Shown: one piece after another, positions 29,478 through 34,220 of the stretch
How the letters are laid out: the number at the start of each line of letters is the position of its first letter
Position numbering within the stretch: position 1 is the stretch's first letter
The notes under the pieces: model-generated
The model's database searches: none
What the model was told of the DNA's origin: nothing
The model's input: the letters and a program-made list of their open reading frames with translations, nothing else
Translations under genes and position numbers: made by a program
DNA from: Sphingomonas sp. PAMC26645
Lineage (GTDB): Bacteria; Pseudomonadota; Alphaproteobacteria; Sphingomonadales; Sphingomonadaceae
Assembly: GCF_004795835.1 (NCBI RefSeq)
Contig: NZ_CP039249.1
Coordinates: 2,951,001 to 3,015,000, forward strand
DNA: 64,000 bases
Reading direction: 5' to 3'

Positions 29478-30515
29478 TCAGCTTCCTGCGTTAAGCAGGT
29501 CGTGGCGTTTCAGGGCGTGGCGGAGTTGGTCGTAGCTCAGGCCGAGTGCCTCGGCGGTGGCGCGTTGGTTGAAGCGGTGTTCCGAGAGGGCGCGCGAGAG
29601 CAGGTCGCGCTCGAAGCGGGATACGCGGGACTTGAAGTCCGAGGGGCCTTCTTCGCACGCGACGACCGGGTCCTCGCCTTCGTCCGGTTCGGTCGCGCGC
29701 GGAGCCGCAACCATAGGTTTAGGCGCAGTCGAAGCCCCCGGCCTATGCGGCGACTGGAACGGGTCGATCTCGATCGCGTCGATCGGCCCGGCCTGCTCCC
29801 AACGATATACCGCGCGCTCGACGACGTTGCGGAGTTCGCGGACGTTCCCCGGCCAGCGATAGGCTATCAGCGCGTCCATCGCCGCCGGGCCGAAGCCTTC
29901 CCAGCGTTCGCGCCCCAGTTCCGATGCCATGCGCCGCCCAAAATACTCTGCCAGCACCACCACGTCGCCGGTGCGCGCGCGCAGAGGCGGTAAGGTGACG
30001 ACCTCGAACGACAACCGGTCGAGCAGATCGGCGCGGAACTCGTGGCGATCGACCTTGTCGGGGAGATGCTCGTTGGTCGCGGCCACGATCCGCACGTCGA
30101 CACGCATGGGTCGCGACGAGCCGATCCGCGTGATCTCGCCATATTCGACCGCGCGCAACAGCCGGTCCTGCGCCGCCATCGATAACGTGCCGAGTTCGTC
30201 GAGGAACAGCGTCCCCCCATCCGCCTCCTCGAACCGCCCTACCCGCGCCTTGGTCGCGCCGGTGAACGCGCCCGCCTCATGCCCAAACAGTTCCGCCTCG
30301 ATCAGCGTCTCGGGCAACGCCGCGCAATTCATGATGACCAACGGCTGATCCCACCGCGGCGACAAGCGGTGAAGGCGTTCGGCGACCAGTTCCTTGCCCG
30401 TGCCACGCTCGCCGATCACCAGTACCGGACGGTCAAGCGCCGCCGCCCGCGATGCGCGTTCGAGCGCCGCCATGAACGTGCCGGACTCGCCGATGACCTG
30501 GGTTGTTCGCTCCAT
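29478..30515 (-). CDS. pspF: Sigma-54-dependent activator of the phage shock operon (PspF)
   Basis: 345 residues from the ATG opposite 30515. AAA+ domain with Walker A GERGTGKE, the sigma-54 contact motif GAFTGATKAR, Walker B GTLFLDELG, then arginine-finger/sensor region RADLLDRLSFEVVTLPPLR. A Fis-type helix-turn-helix closes the protein (QRATAEALGLSYDQLRHALK). There is no N-terminal receiver or sensor domain, as in PspF, whose ATPase is held off by direct PspA binding. Divergent from a sigma-54 promoter that precedes pspA, and the spacing fits direct control. The linker between AAA+ and HTH is longer than in E. coli PspF and acidic. Confidence 0.93.
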   Translation of the reverse strand: MERTTQVIGESGTFMAALERASRAAALDRPVLVIGERGTGKELVAERLHRLSPRWDQPLVIMNCAALPETLIEAELFGHEAGAFTGATKARVGRFEEADGGTLFLDELGTLSMAAQDRLLRAVEYGEITRIGSSRPMRVDVRIVAATNEHLPDKVDRHEFRADLLDRLSFEVVTLPPLRARTGDVVVLAEYFGRRMASELGRERWEGFGPAAMDALIAYRWPGNVRELRNVVERAVYRWEQAGPIDAIEIDPFQSPHRPGASTAPKPMVAAPRATEPDEGEDPVVACEEGPSDFKSRVSRFERDLLSRALSEHRFNQRATAEALGLSYDQLRHALKRHDLLNAGS

Positions 30516-30615: not shown

Positions 30616-30632
30616 TGGCACGACAGATGCAA
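30616..30632 (+). promoter_or_regulatory. Sigma-54 promoter of the psp operon
   Basis: TGGCACGACAGATGCAA carries the -24 GG (30617-30618) and -12 GC (30629-30630) with exactly 10 bases between, the required sigma-54 spacing, and six of the seven TGGCACG bases match. Transcription should start near 30642. It lies between divergent pspF and the psp genes; PspF with the AAA+ GAFTGA motif is the natural activator. Confidence 0.85.
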
Positions 30633-30687
30633 TGCTTCAGGCAACCCGCCGAATAGCGGAAACGACCATCCTCAAAGGGGACCCACC

Positions 30688-30831
30688 ATGTTCAACACCA
30701 CCATCGCCCGCACCGTCGTCGCCGCCCTCTGCACCATCGTCGCCAGCGCAACCTGCGTCATCGGCGCGGTAGGACCTGCGACCGCAACCAACATGACGCC
30801 TATCGCGGCAACCACCGCAATCGTGGCATAA
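30688..30831 (+). CDS. 47-residue secreted or membrane peptide of the psp operon
   Basis: Starts 46 bases after the predicted sigma-54 transcription start with AAAGGGG eight bases before the ATG. The peptide has a basic start (FNTTIART), a hydrophobic core (VVAALCTIVASATCVIGAVG) and a possible signal-peptidase site at ATA before TNMTP. The mature part would be only a dozen residues rich in Thr and Ala. No family is recognised. Being the first cistron of a PspF-controlled operon and followed by a strong hairpin at 30835-30860, it should be expressed strongly under envelope stress. Whether it is a membrane peptide that signals or is toxic is unknown. Confidence 0.7.
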   Translation: MFNTTIARTVVAALCTIVASATCVIGAVGPATATNMTPIAATTAIVA

Positions 30832-30834
30832 GAC

Positions 30835-30860
30835 CCCGACGGCTCGCCAAGAGCCTCGGG
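30835..30860 (+). other. Intercistronic hairpin before pspA
   Basis: CCCGA-C-GGCTC, loop GCCAA, GAGCC-TCGGG: ten base pairs with a single bulged C. It lies between the small peptide and pspA and is not followed by a T-run, so it is more likely an mRNA end protector or partial terminator than a full terminator. It would set a higher level for the small peptide than for pspA. Confidence 0.6.
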
Positions 30861-30883
30861 CCGACCCCTGGAGTAGGATTTAC

Positions 30884-31549
30884 ATGGGCATCTTTTCCCG
30901 CACCCGCGACATCGTCGCCGCCAACTTCGCCGATCTCATCGAGAAGGCCGAAGACCCGTCGAAGATGATCCGCATGATCATCCTCGAGATGGAGGAAACG
31001 CTGGTCGAGGTTCGCGCCTCCGCTGCGCGCACCATCGCCGACCAGAAGGAGATGCGCCGCCATATCTCGAAGCTGGAGCAGCTCCAGGACAACTGGACCG
31101 AGAAGGCCGAGCTGGCGCTGAGCAAGGACCGCGAGGACCTCGCTAAGGCTGCCTTGGTCGAGCGCCAGAAAGCGTTCGACATGGCCGAGCAGTTGAAGGC
31201 CGAGGTTGGCGTGCTCGACGACGCACTTCGGGCGTCGGAAGAGGACATCGCCAAACTCCAGACCAAGCTCCGCGAGGCACGCACCAAGCAGAACGCGGTG
31301 CAGACCCGGCTGGAGAGCGCGAACAACCGGACGCGACTTCGGGAAATGTACAACGGCCCGAAGACGCACGAGGCGTTCAGCCGCTTCGACATCCTCGACC
31401 GCCGCGTCGACGAGGCCGAGGGCCGCGCGGATGCGATGGGGCTCGGGGTCGTCAAGACGCTCGAAGAGGAAATCGCCGAGCTGCGCAGCGACGACAAGGT
31501 CAACGCCCAGCTCGCCGCGCTCAAGGCGCGCATGAAGAAGGACGATTGA
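30884..31549 (+). CDS. pspA: Phage shock protein A
   Basis: 221 residues, almost wholly helical coiled coil, the ESCRT-III-like PspA/IM30 family. Conserved opening MGIFSRTRDIVAANFADLIE (amphipathic helix and first coil), MIRMIILEMEETLVEVR, and AARTIADQKEMRR. It binds stressed inner membrane and also inhibits PspF. The ATG is preceded by GGAGTAGGA. The gene follows the small peptide and hairpin and is directly ahead of pspB (1 base apart), so it is expressed from the same sigma-54 promoter. Confidence 0.97.
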   Translation: MGIFSRTRDIVAANFADLIEKAEDPSKMIRMIILEMEETLVEVRASAARTIADQKEMRRHISKLEQLQDNWTEKAELALSKDREDLAKAALVERQKAFDMAEQLKAEVGVLDDALRASEEDIAKLQTKLREARTKQNAVQTRLESANNRTRLREMYNGPKTHEAFSRFDILDRRVDEAEGRADAMGLGVVKTLEEEIAELRSDDKVNAQLAALKARMKKDD

Positions 31550-31550
31550 G

Positions 31551-31847
31551 ATGAATATCACTGCCGTTCTGGTTTGCGCTGTCCTCTTCATCGGGCTGCC
31601 GTGGGTGATCCTGCACTACATTACCAAGTGGAAGCAGGCGCCGCGGATCACCGAGGAGGACGAACGCCTGCTCGACGAGATGCAGGCGCTCGCCCGCCGC
31701 CTTGAGGACCGCGTGATGACCGTCGAACGGATCATCGCCGCCGACAATCCCGACTGGAAGCCGGGCCTCGGCACGACGCAATCGCCGTATCTGTCGGACC
31801 ATCAGTCCGACCGCACCATTGATCGCAACTCGGATCGGAGGAACTGA
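31551..31847 (+). CDS. pspB: Phage shock protein B
   Basis: 98 residues. Single N-terminal membrane helix (VLVCAVLFIGLPWVILHYI) followed by a short coiled coil with LARRLEDRVMTVERIIAADN and PDW, matching E. coli PspB (RMRERIQALESILDAEHPNW). The C-terminal 30 residues are an added Ser/Asp-rich tail. With PspC it forms the inner-membrane sensor that draws PspA away from PspF. One base after pspA stop; 1 base before pspC. Confidence 0.93.
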   Translation: MNITAVLVCAVLFIGLPWVILHYITKWKQAPRITEEDERLLDEMQALARRLEDRVMTVERIIAADNPDWKPGLGTTQSPYLSDHQSDRTIDRNSDRRN

Positions 31848-31848
31848 A

Positions 31849-32232
31849 ATGTCCGGCAGCCGCACCCAGTTTTACCTCGATAAGCAGAACGCCAAGTGGA
31901 AGGGCGTCTGCGCCGGGATCGCCGACTATACCGGCGTCGACGCGCTCTTCGTCCGTGTCGGCATGGTCGTCCTGACGCTTGCCGGGGGCTTTCCCTGGAC
32001 GCTGCTGGCCTATTGGATGGTCGCCTGGATGGGCCATGCCAAGCCTATCGGCCTGTACGAGACGCCCGACGACGCGAAGTTCTGGCAGGGCGTCCGATCG
32101 AACCCGAAGCGGTCGACTGCCGAGGTCCGCAGCAAGTTCCGCGACATCGACCGCCGCCTCGCCGACATCGAGACGCACTATACCAGCCGCTCAAGCAACA
32201 GCCTCGCGGCAGAGATCGACAGCCTGCGCTGA
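31849..32232 (+). CDS. pspC: Phage shock protein C
   Basis: 127 residues from ATG 31849, with GGAGGAACTGAA upstream; the ATG at 31819 lies inside pspB and is not used here. PspC domain (about residues 5-65): YLDKQNAKWKGVCAGIADYT, VDALFVRVGMVVLTLAGGFP, then a membrane helix ending YWMVAWMGH. The C-terminal half is predicted cytoplasmic coiled coil (RSKFRDIDRRLADIETHY). Partner of PspB in envelope-stress sensing. Confidence 0.95.
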   Translation: MSGSRTQFYLDKQNAKWKGVCAGIADYTGVDALFVRVGMVVLTLAGGFPWTLLAYWMVAWMGHAKPIGLYETPDDAKFWQGVRSNPKRSTAEVRSKFRDIDRRLADIETHYTSRSSNSLAAEIDSLR

Positions 32233-32264
32233 GACGCGGCGTCGATCGAAAAGGGGGAAATACC

Positions 32265-32540
32265 ATGCCACCAGAAGCAGCACTGATACTGGGTATCATA
32301 CTCGGCACGCTGGCAACGCTGACGATCCAGGCATTTGGTCGCCGCAAGGCGCGGATCGCGGTCAAGGCCGCGAACCGGGATGCGGAACGCAGCATCGCGC
32401 TGCTCGACAGCGAGAATATGCGCCGCACCGGCCAGATCGACCGCCTGCAGGAGCGGATCCAGGTCCTCGAGCGGATCACCACCGATCCCGCCGAGCGCAC
32501 CGCCCGCGAAATCGAGGCGCTTCGCCTCCAGCCGAACTGA
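32265..32540 (+). CDS. PspB-like single-pass coiled-coil protein, paralogue 1
   Basis: 91 residues from ATG 32265, with AAGGGGGAAA upstream. One membrane helix near residues 6-24, basic linker (FGRRKARIAV), then a coiled coil with LQERIQVLERITTDPAERT and EIEALR. The ERIxVLERI-TD core resembles that of PspB. It is nearly identical in its coil to the next gene (shared TGQ..RL.ERI.VLERI.TDPAERTAREIEALR pattern), showing recent duplication. No known family beyond PspB-like. 32 bases after pspC; same strand. Confidence 0.85.
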   Translation: MPPEAALILGIILGTLATLTIQAFGRRKARIAVKAANRDAERSIALLDSENMRRTGQIDRLQERIQVLERITTDPAERTAREIEALRLQPN

Positions 32541-32552
32541 AGGGATACTGCA

Positions 32553-32846
32553 ATGGATTGGGGTTTGATCATACCGGTCGTGGCAATTTCAATAGGACCG
32601 GTTGCCTGGGTTGCGAACAACTGGGTCCGCGCAAAGCATGGCTTCGAGCCAGAAGCGCGCCGCCGCAGGCGCGGGCGGGACGGCGATGTCGACGGTGAGC
32701 GCCAGGTATTGCTGCTCAGCAACGAGAACGAGCGCCTGACCGGGCAGGTCTCCCGCCTCGAGGAACGGATCGCGGTCCTCGAGCGCATCGCCACCGATCC
32801 CGCCGAGCGTACCGCTCGCGAGATCGAAGCACTCCGCGATCGCTGA
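32553..32846 (+). CDS. PspB-like single-pass coiled-coil protein, paralogue 2
   Basis: 97 residues with AAGGGATACTGCA before ATG. One membrane helix (LIIPVVAISIGPVAWVANNW), an arginine-rich linker (EARRRRRGRDGD), then NERLTGQVSRLEERIAVLER, closely matching the preceding protein. The Arg-rich linker is not in the first copy, so topology (positive-inside) puts the coil in the cytoplasm in both. Twelve bases between the two genes. Confidence 0.85.
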   Translation: MDWGLIIPVVAISIGPVAWVANNWVRAKHGFEPEARRRRRGRDGDVDGERQVLLLSNENERLTGQVSRLEERIAVLERIATDPAERTAREIEALRDR

Positions 32847-32857
32847 GGACATCGATC

Positions 32858-33211
32858 ATGGACGGATTTACGGTTTTCATGCTCGCGATCGTCTGCGTCG
32901 GCGCTCCCGTCACGCTCGGGATCGGCAGCGAGATGTTCAAGAGCTGGTTGCGACACAAGGAGACGATGGCCACCGCGCTGAACGCGCAGACCGCGGAGAA
33001 GGCGGCGCAATATGCAGCCCACACCGAACGTCTCGAACAGCGCGTCCGCGTGCTGGAACGGATCGCCACCGATCGCGGCACCGGCGTCGCCGACGAGATT
33101 GAACGGCTCCGGGTCGAACCAACCCCATCCCAGGCGGTACTGTCACCCGCATCCCCACCGATCGCGCTGACGGCCCGCCACCCGAGCCTCGTTGAAGGAG
33201 AAACACGATGA
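32858..33211 (+). CDS. PspB-like single-pass coiled-coil protein, paralogue 3
   Basis: 117 residues; GAGGACATCGATC before ATG. One membrane helix (FMLAIVCVGAPVTLGIG), then a coil with LEQRVRVLERIATDR and EIERLR, followed by a Pro-rich tail (PTPSQAVLSPASPP) that neither other copy has. The gene overlaps the next by ATGA (33208-33211), proving an operon. Confidence 0.83.
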   Translation: MDGFTVFMLAIVCVGAPVTLGIGSEMFKSWLRHKETMATALNAQTAEKAAQYAAHTERLEQRVRVLERIATDRGTGVADEIERLRVEPTPSQAVLSPASPPIALTARHPSLVEGETR

Positions 33212-33450
33212 ACCCCTTTTCGATGGTCGTCTGCATCGTGCTGATCGTGATGGCCGCCAAGGTGCTGACCGCGCGCTACCGCGCGATGGGCGACGCCCCG
33301 GCCAAGCCGGCCGACAGCATCGATACGCTGCGGCTGCGCGACGAGGTGCAGCAGATGAAGGAGCGTATCCAGGTTCTGGAGCGCGTGATCACCGACAACC
33401 ACAAGAGCGTCGATCTCGACCGAGAGATCGAACGGCTCCGCGACCGCTAG
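33208..33450 (+). CDS. PspB-like single-pass coiled-coil protein, paralogue 4
   Basis: 80 residues; GAAGGAGAAACACG upstream. Membrane helix MVVCIVLIVMAAKVL, a Pro-rich link (APAKPADS) and the coil LRDEVQQMKERIQVLERVIT, the closest match in this set to true PspB (MRERIQALESIL). A second candidate for a functional PspB. Nine bases before the next gene. Confidence 0.85.
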   Translation: MNPFSMVVCIVLIVMAAKVLTARYRAMGDAPAKPADSIDTLRLRDEVQQMKERIQVLERVITDNHKSVDLDREIERLRDR

Positions 33451-33459
33451 GAGGCGGAC

Positions 33460-33699
33460 ATGATCGAACCGAACGTCTATATCACCCTGGCGCTGGCGAG
33501 CCTTGCAGGGTTGGCAATGATCGTCGCCGGTGGATTGGCCGGATGGCGCGGATGGCTCTCGCTGCGGCGGATGGAGCTGGATCACATGCAGGACGGCCGC
33601 ATGCCGGTCGCGGTGTCGACCGGGTCGCGGATCGAGATCGCGGACTTGAAGGAGCGGATCAAGAAGCTGGAGGCGATCGCTGCCGGGGTGGATCTTTAA
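33460..33699 (+). CDS. PspB-like single-pass protein, most diverged paralogue
   Basis: 79 residues with a very strong TAGGAGGCGGAC upstream. Membrane helix ITLALASLAGLAMIVAGGLA, then WRGWLSLRRMELDHMQDGRM and a short coil ADLKERIKKLEAIAAGV, which keeps KERI..LE but is otherwise unlike the other copies. Last gene of the psp operon, followed by a palindrome. Confidence 0.8.
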   Translation: MIEPNVYITLALASLAGLAMIVAGGLAGWRGWLSLRRMELDHMQDGRMPVAVSTGSRIEIADLKERIKKLEAIAAGVDL

Positions 33700-33717: not shown

Positions 33718-33770
33718 GTTCCCCCGCGAAGGCGGGGGTCCAGACTGGGCCCCCGCCTTCGCGGGGGAAC
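33718..33770. repeat. Intergenic palindrome, CGCGAAGGCG family
   Basis: GTTCCCCCGCGAAGGCGGGGG and CCCCCGCCTTCGCGGGGGAAC form an almost perfect 21-bp inverted repeat around GTCCAGACTGGGC. It directly follows the psp operon and could terminate it. Confidence 0.9.
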
Positions 33771-33812
33771 ATGGTGTTGAAGCGCTAAGGCCGACCCGCT
33801 ACCGCCCACGGC

Positions 33813-34220
33813 ATGGCCACTCTCACCGACATTCGCGAGGAATACGACTTCCTCGAACCCGACGATCGTTATCGACTGCTGATCGACCTTGGCAAAGAGC
33901 TTGAACCGATGCCGGATGCGCTGAAGACCGACGCGACTTTGGTGCGCGGGTGTTCGGCCTCGGTCTGGGTCTATCCGACTACGACCGACGATGGCCGGCT
34001 CCACTTTCTCGCGGATTCGAATGCGGCGATCACCAAGGGGATCATCGCGCTGGTGTTGCTGACGGTGCAGGATCAGGCGCCGGGTGCGATCGTCGCGACA
34101 GATATCAAGGCGGAACTGGCGCCGTTCGACCTGAGCAAGCAGCTGAGCTCGAACCGGACGCAGGGGATTCCGAATATGATCGCTTTGATTCGCGAGACGG
34201 CGGAGCGGTACGCCGGCTGA
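33813..34220 (+). CDS. sufE: SufE-like cysteine desulfurase activator
   Basis: 135 residues, a normal SufE length. The sulfur-accepting cysteine is C47 in LVRGCSASVW. SufE receives persulfide sulfur from SufS and passes it to SufBCD for Fe-S assembly. The suf cluster is not in view; isolated sufE is common in alphaproteobacteria. Convergent with the following [2Fe-2S] protein across a palindrome. Confidence 0.92.
   Translation: MATLTDIREEYDFLEPDDRYRLLIDLGKELEPMPDALKTDATLVRGCSASVWVYPTTTDDGRLHFLADSNAAITKGIIALVLLTVQDQAPGAIVATDIKAELAPFDLSKQLSSNRTQGIPNMIALIRETAERYAG

Follow-up and report, generated by a model that had tools for sequence, protein, structure and literature searches.

Among stress responses, that of the phage shock proteins (Psp) is very widespread. 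Two of its events are still open: the recruitment of PspA to damaged membrane, and the switch by which PspB and PspC take PspA off its target, the activator PspF. In E. coli, the PspC fragment 40–119 consists of one transmembrane (TM) helix and the leucine-zipper tail; it interacts with PspA and, when overproduced, induces psp without PspB; leucine-zipper mutants of PspC lose the PspA interaction (PMC3068692, in the part of the text drawn on here). Ravi et al. (2024) report PspB duplicates in a psp operon, for example AOL22920.1, and PspC proteins that can bear a divergent C-terminal PspB (PMC11237479, sections drawn on here). In this work we analyzed a 64,000-nucleotide stretch of Sphingomonas sp. 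PAMC26645 (contig NZ_CP039249.1, positions 2,951,001 to 3,015,000 of the forward strand), referred to as the window, in which five small genes, here called extras or copies 1–5, follow pspA, pspB and pspC. An earlier sequence-only reading took them for additional PspB-like proteins. We find such genes behind pspABC in nearly every complete psp locus of the family, and their proteins appear to be single-helix membrane anchors whose tail is at least as close to the C-terminal helix of PspC as to PspB.

While PspB duplication in a psp operon is already known, the family-wide array was not found described. Sections 8, 17 and 26 of Ravi et al. (PMC11237479) say nothing of how many copies occur, of conservation across the family, of sub-families or solo relatives, or of loss together with PspA, the supplementary tables and web app being outside this scope. 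A literature search, again with those supplements outside its scope, did not turn up any description of the array as a family-wide feature, of its sub-families or of its resemblance to the PspC tail. Papers on psp in Sphingomonas, Novosphingobium and Erythrobacter (including PMC9241875 and PMC11186258), in the portions covered, contain nothing on extra genes of the operon, and the words alphaproteobacteria and sphingomonad are absent from the main text of PMC9239133.

Five small genes follow pspABC

The extras are open reading frames (ORFs) in a tight run directly behind pspC, as the sequence-only reading had described:

32265..32540, + strand: copy 1 (OG1, GRRK subtype), one TM helix, coil and TD..EIEALR tail; profile E 2.1e-23
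32553..32846, + strand: copy 2 (OG1), one TM helix, coil and tail; profile E 5.3e-29; dN/dS 0.08–0.12 (three comparisons)
32858..33211, + strand: copy 3 (OG3, EKAAQYAA coil); profile E 6.6e-24; PF06667 E 0.023, under the cut-off
33208..33450, + strand: copy 4 (OG4, MVVxIV type), nearest to PspB; PF06667 E 9.6e-4; TIGR02976 E 1.1e-4
33460..33699, + strand: copy 5 (OG5), the last gene, with RIEIADLKERIxKLEAIAAGVDL; found by the gene caller in 142 of 156 complete loci

Gaps range from -4 to 32 nt, the negative value being a 4-nt overlap of copies 3 and 4, and Shine-Dalgarno-like matches measure 4, 4, 4, 6 and 6 nt for copies 1–5. Third-position GC exceeds second-position GC in the extras by 0.25–0.57. 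From the spacing, we infer co-transcription of the extras with pspABC. Hydropathy and charge bear out the single N-terminal membrane helix proposed for each protein: in all five, as in pspB, the hydrophobic segment near the N-terminus is flanked by basic residues on the C-terminal side only. The predicted orientation is N-out, C-in, with a cytoplasmic amphipathic helix. In single-chain AlphaFold2 models, from which secondary structure alone was used given the low pLDDT, copy 4 consists of helices H3-27 and H37-78, the latter of 42 residues (mean pLDDT 75.7), and PspC ends in a 41-residue helix, 86–126 (mean pLDDT 70.2).

The sequence-only reading had assigned the motif ERIxVLERI-TD, or a variant of it, to every extra. 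Copies 1–4 indeed share [EQ]-R-I/V-x-V-L-E-R-I/V-x-T-D, which in copy 3 reads EQRVRVLERIATD; copy 5 carries only the variant ERIKKLEAIA in its place. The extras were divided into five groups, OG1–OG5, cut by similarity and simple patterns rather than by phylogeny; OG1 comprises copies 1 and 2, and OG2 is common in other loci and not represented among the window's extras. In hhalign comparisons, OG1–OG4 match one another at 98–100%, and OG5 matches OG4 at 90%, OG3 at 85%, OG1 at 71% and OG2 at only 17%. By these profile comparisons, copies 1–4 are one homologous family and copy 5 is a more diverged relative, common descent being weaker there. Copies 1 and 2 had also been called recent duplicates, a claim that did not hold up: only the coil is similar (71/84 nt, 19/28 third positions), and the preceding 20 codons agree at 38/60 nt. 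In addition, GRRK-type relatives of copy 1 occur in other Sphingomonas, some of them with a different tail.

Distribution across sphingomonads

In our sphingomonad sample, PspA is present in 139 of 149 genomes, and the genes 3′ of pspA were read in 110 of the 139, the window's included (30 short loci, L002–L031, and 80 longer ones, L112–L191). A further 80 named loci, whose titles are almost all Sphingomonas, are the best 80 of 545 relatives; the named and other sets may share species. Four loci were excluded as incomplete. At least one extra is present in 155 of the 156 loci that cover the psp operon completely, mostly three to six and at most seven, and in all 29 short loci besides the window's own. 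The conservation check proposed by the sequence-only reading thus shows a family-wide array, which rules it out as a peculiarity of the host genome.

The gene caller found four extras in 45 of the 76 named loci, five in 20, three in seven, six in two, and two and none in one each. Among the 80 other loci, it found none in two, one in five, two in three, three in 11, four in 20, five in 21, six in 11 and seven in seven. A six-frame search recovered extras in two of the caller's zeros (six in L056, five in L132). The only true zero among the 156 is L121, for which neither a six-frame search nor its genome (G049) gave a match. Across 920 intergenic gaps of the run, the median is 17 nt. The caller rewards Shine-Dalgarno matches, and its Shine-Dalgarno counts are not independent evidence.

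PspB or PspC?

Copy 4 was said to be closest to PspB, and it has the best PspB score of the five, 19.6 bits against PF06667 (cut-off 25.6) and 22.4 bits against TIGR02976 (cut-off 51.7). A lack of both profile similarity and co-transcription would have told against the sequence-only reading; copy 4 matches both PspB profiles, and that refutation does not apply. The PspC core model PF04024 matches none of the five extras at E<=1, and copy 5 has no match at E<=1 to any PspB or PspC model of Pfam or NCBIfam. Among 44 family members scanned at E<=0.01, the PspC model TIGR02978 matches 14 (best E 5.7e-5), TIGR02976 matches 13 and PF06667 seven.

We also used a profile, A2, built from 44 sequences of copies 1–4 and their relatives without PspB or PspC. 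In the host genome it finds copies 1–4, with PspB as the next-best match (E 0.0066), followed by a 379-codon frame elsewhere (0.35) and copy 5 (0.91). The six-frame segment set comprises 23,045 segments from 160 loci, many of them near-identical, so that the counts are not independent. At A2 >=15 bits, matches are seen in 93/159 PspB, 97/162 PspC and 99/146 copy-5 segments and in 2/22,039 others, both of which look copy-5-like by eye; at >=18 bits the numbers are 36, 51, 35 and 0. Chance coiled-coil similarity was considered as the whole explanation and rejected, as it leaves this separation of PspB, PspC and OG5 from 22,039 segments unexplained. Taken together, the profile comparisons support homology of the extras to the PspB/PspC signalling pair.

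Profile–profile comparison with hhalign gives, for OG1, OG2, OG3 and OG4, respectively, 94, 95, 84 and 94% to PspC and 92, 73, 75 and 75% to PspB; PspB and PspC match each other at 17%. Controls with reversed sequences mostly stay below 17%, with exceptions at 27%, 39% and 61%, and given the last of these, single profile matches must not be over-read. The ends of the proteins are more distinctive. The pattern VLERIvTD...eIE.LR is seen in 472 of 539 extras and TVERIiAADNPDw in 99 of 159 PspB, the remaining rows falling outside the simple pattern; the PspC consensus comes from only 17 of 162 rows. The T-D-x(n)-E-I-x-x-L-R end of copies 1–4 corresponds to T-S-x(n)-E-I-x-x-L-R of family PspC, and the same PspC end is present in alignment A4 (15 PspC). 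The PspB C-terminal signature A-A-D-N-P-D-W, a consensus from sphingomonad PspB, is not found in copies 1–4. The description of the shared motif as the core of PspB is therefore half right, since TVERIIAADNP stands in the window's own PspB, and the TD...EIxxLR end of copies 1–4 matches PspC.

These similarities bear on the idea, close to the original one, that each extra is a PspB paralogue pairing with PspC, with different combinations sensing different insults. It would agree with the position of copy 4 near the PspB threshold, with a precomputed PF06667 label on 6 of the 120 copy-4 relatives listed, with an extra of family genome G041 at PF06667 E 1.5e-4 (under the cut-off), with the OG1–PspB alignment at 92%, which spans both TM helix and coil, and with TM halves that differ strongly among copies. 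True extra PspB genes also exist elsewhere (G321, and an adjacent pair in G793). However, none of the window's five extras exceeds the PspB cut-off, pspB alone is found genome-wide at E<=0.001, and the AADNPDW that follows the PspB coil is replaced by the PspC-like TD..EIxxLR end. We consider such PspB-based sensing distinctly unlikely. Formal PspB membership of the five extras was rejected on their sub-cut-off scores, even if the border is soft, as the 6/120 labels indicate. The count of six PspB-type modules could not be upheld either: none of the five reaches the PspB cut-off, copy 5 has no match, and the PspC C-terminal domain fits as well or better. Because the profiles resemble the PspC C-terminal helix as much as PspB or more, "single-helix anchors with a PspB/PspC-tail-like helix" appears to fit the extras better than "six PspBs".

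Selection, possible exchange of halves and co-occurrence with PspA

Over 13 comparisons, dN/dS of copies 2–5 lies between 0 and 0.30, and at this level of coding-sequence comparison the four are shown to be under purifying selection. Copy 1 is absent from relative L036 through a clean indel of ~297 bp (window 32244–32540) with flanks 94.5 and 97.1% identical. One might suppose that the array is neutral drift by tandem duplication and has no specific function, as the clean loss of copy 1 from a close relative and a copy number of 0–7 among loci could indicate. Low dN/dS in copies 2–5 and the presence of a copy-5-type gene in 142/156 loci tell against this, and we give drift hardly any credence.

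Locus L056 encodes an OG1-type tail on an OG2-type N-terminus, and copy-1-type proteins occur with either tail. Because of this hybrid and these alternative tails, the sequences suggest that halves have been exchanged between copies.

In nine family genomes without PspA (PF04012), 90–100% complete, no extra was found; Fisher's test of 79/1 versus 0/9 gives p 1.6e-11, the lineages not being independent. In a tenth PspA-less genome (G082, 66% complete), the extras are on a contig that ends just upstream, judged from locus length. As a separate observation, a second PspA match with 50–74% identity lies elsewhere in family genomes G053, G129, G074, G142, G077 and G145; in G142 it spans residues 3–191.

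Relatives outside the family and origin of the array

In the host order, A2 matches 172 of 196 genomes. In the host class it matches 13 of 289, namely four family members and nine others. Two of these nine hits (G246, G324) overlap PspB itself, one (G182) is inside a PspC, and four (G155, G336, G388, G311) are in open frames of 249–998 aa. G329 has a pair beside coaBC-dut, 80 kb from PspB, and the hit in G391 is a 74-aa gene within the psp operon. By eye, that locus (L203, 1058–2097) encodes a PspC seemingly without its C-terminal tail, then the 74-aa single-TM coil protein and then a full PspC; tail and core of PspC may be split between genes in this genome.

Twenty matching genomes were followed up, 19 of the host order and G329. 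In 16 of them, G329 among these and the other 15 from the order, the relative is found only on a contig without pspA or 80 kb or more away from it; a further weak match in three of these genomes (G439, G452, G465) is, by position, presumably pspB. Each of the three f165 genomes has one relative 1.0–1.1 kb behind pspA and another at a separate location, which in two cases is, by eye, next to rpoD. In one f165 genome (G456, L267), a 79-codon PspC-like frame stands before the operon copy of the extra and after a full PspC. G483 has a solo copy and a second PspB-like gene in its psp operon.

These solo relatives point to another explanation, in which the extras are downstream effectors, that is, membrane-stabilizing or scaffolding helices of the psp regulon that neither dock PspA nor signal, and their likeness to PspB and PspC reflects distant common descent. 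Solo genes are located, by eye, beside rpoD in two f165 loci (L254, L256) and beside coaBC-dut in two f146 loci (L310, L311). Others are scattered in further proteobacteria (L295–L297, L299, L302), A2 matching 48 of 398 phylum genomes, family members included, and copy 5 has no PspC-like tail. The solo relatives are small, uncharacterized membrane proteins and may serve a function unconnected with PspA; one of them (L295, 3033–3272) scores E 4.7e-5 against the PspC model and E 8e-5 against that of PspB. On the other hand, extras occur in 155/156 complete family psp loci and in none of the nine PspA-less genomes, and the tail of copies 1–4 follows that of PspC, the PspA-binding part. An effector role is a serious alternative, if on balance an unlikely one.

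Another family of the host class offers a parallel. In G321 and G416, a PspB match is followed 1.2 kb further on by a second, weaker one. The psp operon of G321 adds an 80-aa single-TM protein and a second PspB (L227, 2429–2671 and 2696–2917), the latter above the Pfam and below the NCBIfam cut-off. The 80-aa protein matches only residues 82–121 of the PspC model (E 1.1e-6) and is 53% identical to the tail of its own PspC (E 8.7e-10). As a sequence comparison, G321 supports the PspC-tail reading of the extras as an independent case. Outside the class but in the same phylum, G793 (C1:1117368–1117807) has two adjacent PspB matches far above the Pfam cut-off, a plain PspB duplication.

The simplest history would be that a psp operon captured a solo gene, which was then amplified. 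In a quick tree of the 80-residue proteins, f165 operon copies fall near f165 solo copies; its largest pure clades have 4–13 leaves with supports of 0.20–0.77, too weak to prove capture.

A possible role in docking PspA

The extras may be PspF-induced additional docks for PspA, a reading to which we give nearly even chances of being right. We favor it because the extras naturally share the one-TM-plus-tail architecture of E. coli PspC40–119. Stress would free PspF, and the sigma-54 promoter would then yield PspA together with the anchor set. The anchors would sit beside PspB and PspC via helix–helix contacts and present added PspC-tail-like docking surfaces to PspA. More PspA could then be recruited to the damaged membrane and its absence from PspF prolonged; how many anchors there are, and of which kinds, would set the gain of the response.

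Several observations weigh against such docking. None of the five extras exceeds a curated PspB or PspC cut-off in Pfam or NCBIfam, and OG5 reaches only 8% to PspB and 0.4% to PspC in hhalign, leaving copy 5 without a PspC match. Reversed OG2 scores 61% against PspC, coiled-coil profiles can match by composition, and bZIP and ZapB models, for a solo relative also DivIC, match weakly. The solo genes show that the module can live outside psp operons, and in family genome G079 a 137-codon frame (C6:209425–209580, E 7.7e-15) is on a contig other than that of the operon copies. Co-loss of PspA and extras could be one whole-operon deletion per lineage. G049 has PspA, PspB and PspC and no extra. G065 (97% complete) has three extras, and its sole PspA match is distant; a contig end lies 463 bp from where these extras start, and pspA may have been cut off. 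In E. coli, finally, PspC fragments failed in stress-dependent (pIV) induction, which at low level only full-length PspC supported, and the soluble tail 69–119 acted only with PspB (PMC3068692, in the part used).

The extras might instead act as competitors that bind the tails of PspB or PspC and hold the system off or end the response by feedback inhibition. PspA is itself a negative regulator, and the extras, which presumably share its promoter, would come into play once the system is induced. The PspC tail is reported to bind PspA in the on state (PMC5596341, in the part used). The overproduced one-TM PspC fragment of E. coli activates rather than represses (PMC3068692, same part as above), and we hold inhibition to be improbable. 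According to work attributed to Flores-Kim and Darwin (2015), the PspC tail reportedly contacts PspB in the off state.

Returning to PspA docking, a broader proposal is that sphingomonad Psp is multivalent: a captured solo PspC-tail-like single-helix protein would have been amplified to as many as seven distinct anchors that together serve PspA as a membrane platform, the response being tuned by copy number and by swapped TM halves. This we put forward only tentatively, expecting it to fail more readily than to hold. With a natural series of 0–7 anchors, and with genomes missing them all, what the PspC/PspB tail does can be tested directly. The analysis can also aid annotation, since copy-4 relatives are listed mostly as "hypothetical" and in some cases as "Phage shock protein B" or "cell division protein FtsB".

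Promoter, pspABC and the end of the operon

The host genome is a single contig of 4.28 Mb, and the window's PspA is 99–100% identical to PspA of Sphingomonas faeni, S. aurantiaca and close relatives. The other features of the locus are:

29478..30515, - strand: pspF, divergent, sigma-54 enhancer-binding activator; TIGR02974 474.8 bits (cut-off 443.55); ATG at 30515
30616..30631, + strand: sigma-54 -24/-12-like promoter TGGCACGACAGATGCA, the sole exact TGGCACN6TGCW in the window
30688..30831, + strand: 47-aa signal-peptide-like leader ORF between promoter and pspA; tblastn E<=0.1 in 83 loci, some of which overlap, the weakest matches possibly being chance
30884..31549, + strand: pspA; PF04012 E 1e-38; TIGR02977 271.5 bits, above the cut-off
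31551..31847, + strand: pspB; PF06667 E 1.3e-23, 83.3 bits; the genome's single PF06667 match at E<=0.001
31849..32232, + strand: pspC; TIGR02978 109.0 bits (cut-off 104); C-terminal helix related to the extras
33718..33773, no strand assigned: palindromic GC-rich repeat past the last gene, a possible transcript end; similar copies in relatives

Each of pspF, pspA, pspB and pspC scores above its own NCBIfam cut-off, and the operon-like array behind a PspF/sigma-54 promoter, with pspF divergent, is as the sequence-only reading had it. With one mismatch allowed, the sigma-54-type pattern is found three times in the window versus six expected by chance, and on its own it is not significant there. 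With up to two mismatches, such a site lies within 700 nt 5′ of pspA in 159/160 loci versus 136/800 random 700-nt stretches. The promoter scan covers sigma-70 sites only.

Transcription from the sigma-54 site would make the leader ORF the first gene; the ORF's start and length are similar in Sphingomonas. It has no Pfam match at E<=1 and in NCBIfam only MerF (E 0.37). Some ATG ORF of 30–75 aa with a Shine-Dalgarno match is present in the promoter–pspA gap of 107/160 loci, a count made with no control. Downstream, the terminator scan called none after copy 5. Copies similar to the 33718–33773 repeat are found elsewhere in related loci, in both orientations; it may be a dispersed repeat used as a transcription end. 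The SufE gene (PF02657) begins beyond it, at 33813.

Comparison with known Psp proteins

PspB, the partner of PspC in enterobacteria, shares with the extras one N-terminal TM helix, a basic cytoplasmic flank, a coil with an ER...xE-R-I core and a place in the same operon. The extras differ in scoring below the curated cut-offs and in residues after the coil that are not PspB-like, and copy 5 gives no match. The duplicates of Ravi et al. (PMC11237479, sections used here) are the same in kind as the extras, in that a psp operon carries more than one PspB-type module. PspD and PspG of Gammaproteobacteria are, like the extras, small membrane proteins of the PspF regulon, an analogy of role that involves no sequence comparison.

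The PspA-binding C-terminal domain of PspC (the last 40 residues of TIGR02978) is, like OG1–OG4, a long helix ending T-S/D-...-L-x-x-E-I-x-x-L-R. PspC differs in having the PF04024 core and two TM helices, according to the same sections of Ravi et al. (PMC11237479), versus one in the extras. The E. coli fragment PspC40–119 combines a TM helix with the C-terminal domain, as the extras do; unlike them, it is a laboratory fragment and not a natural gene.

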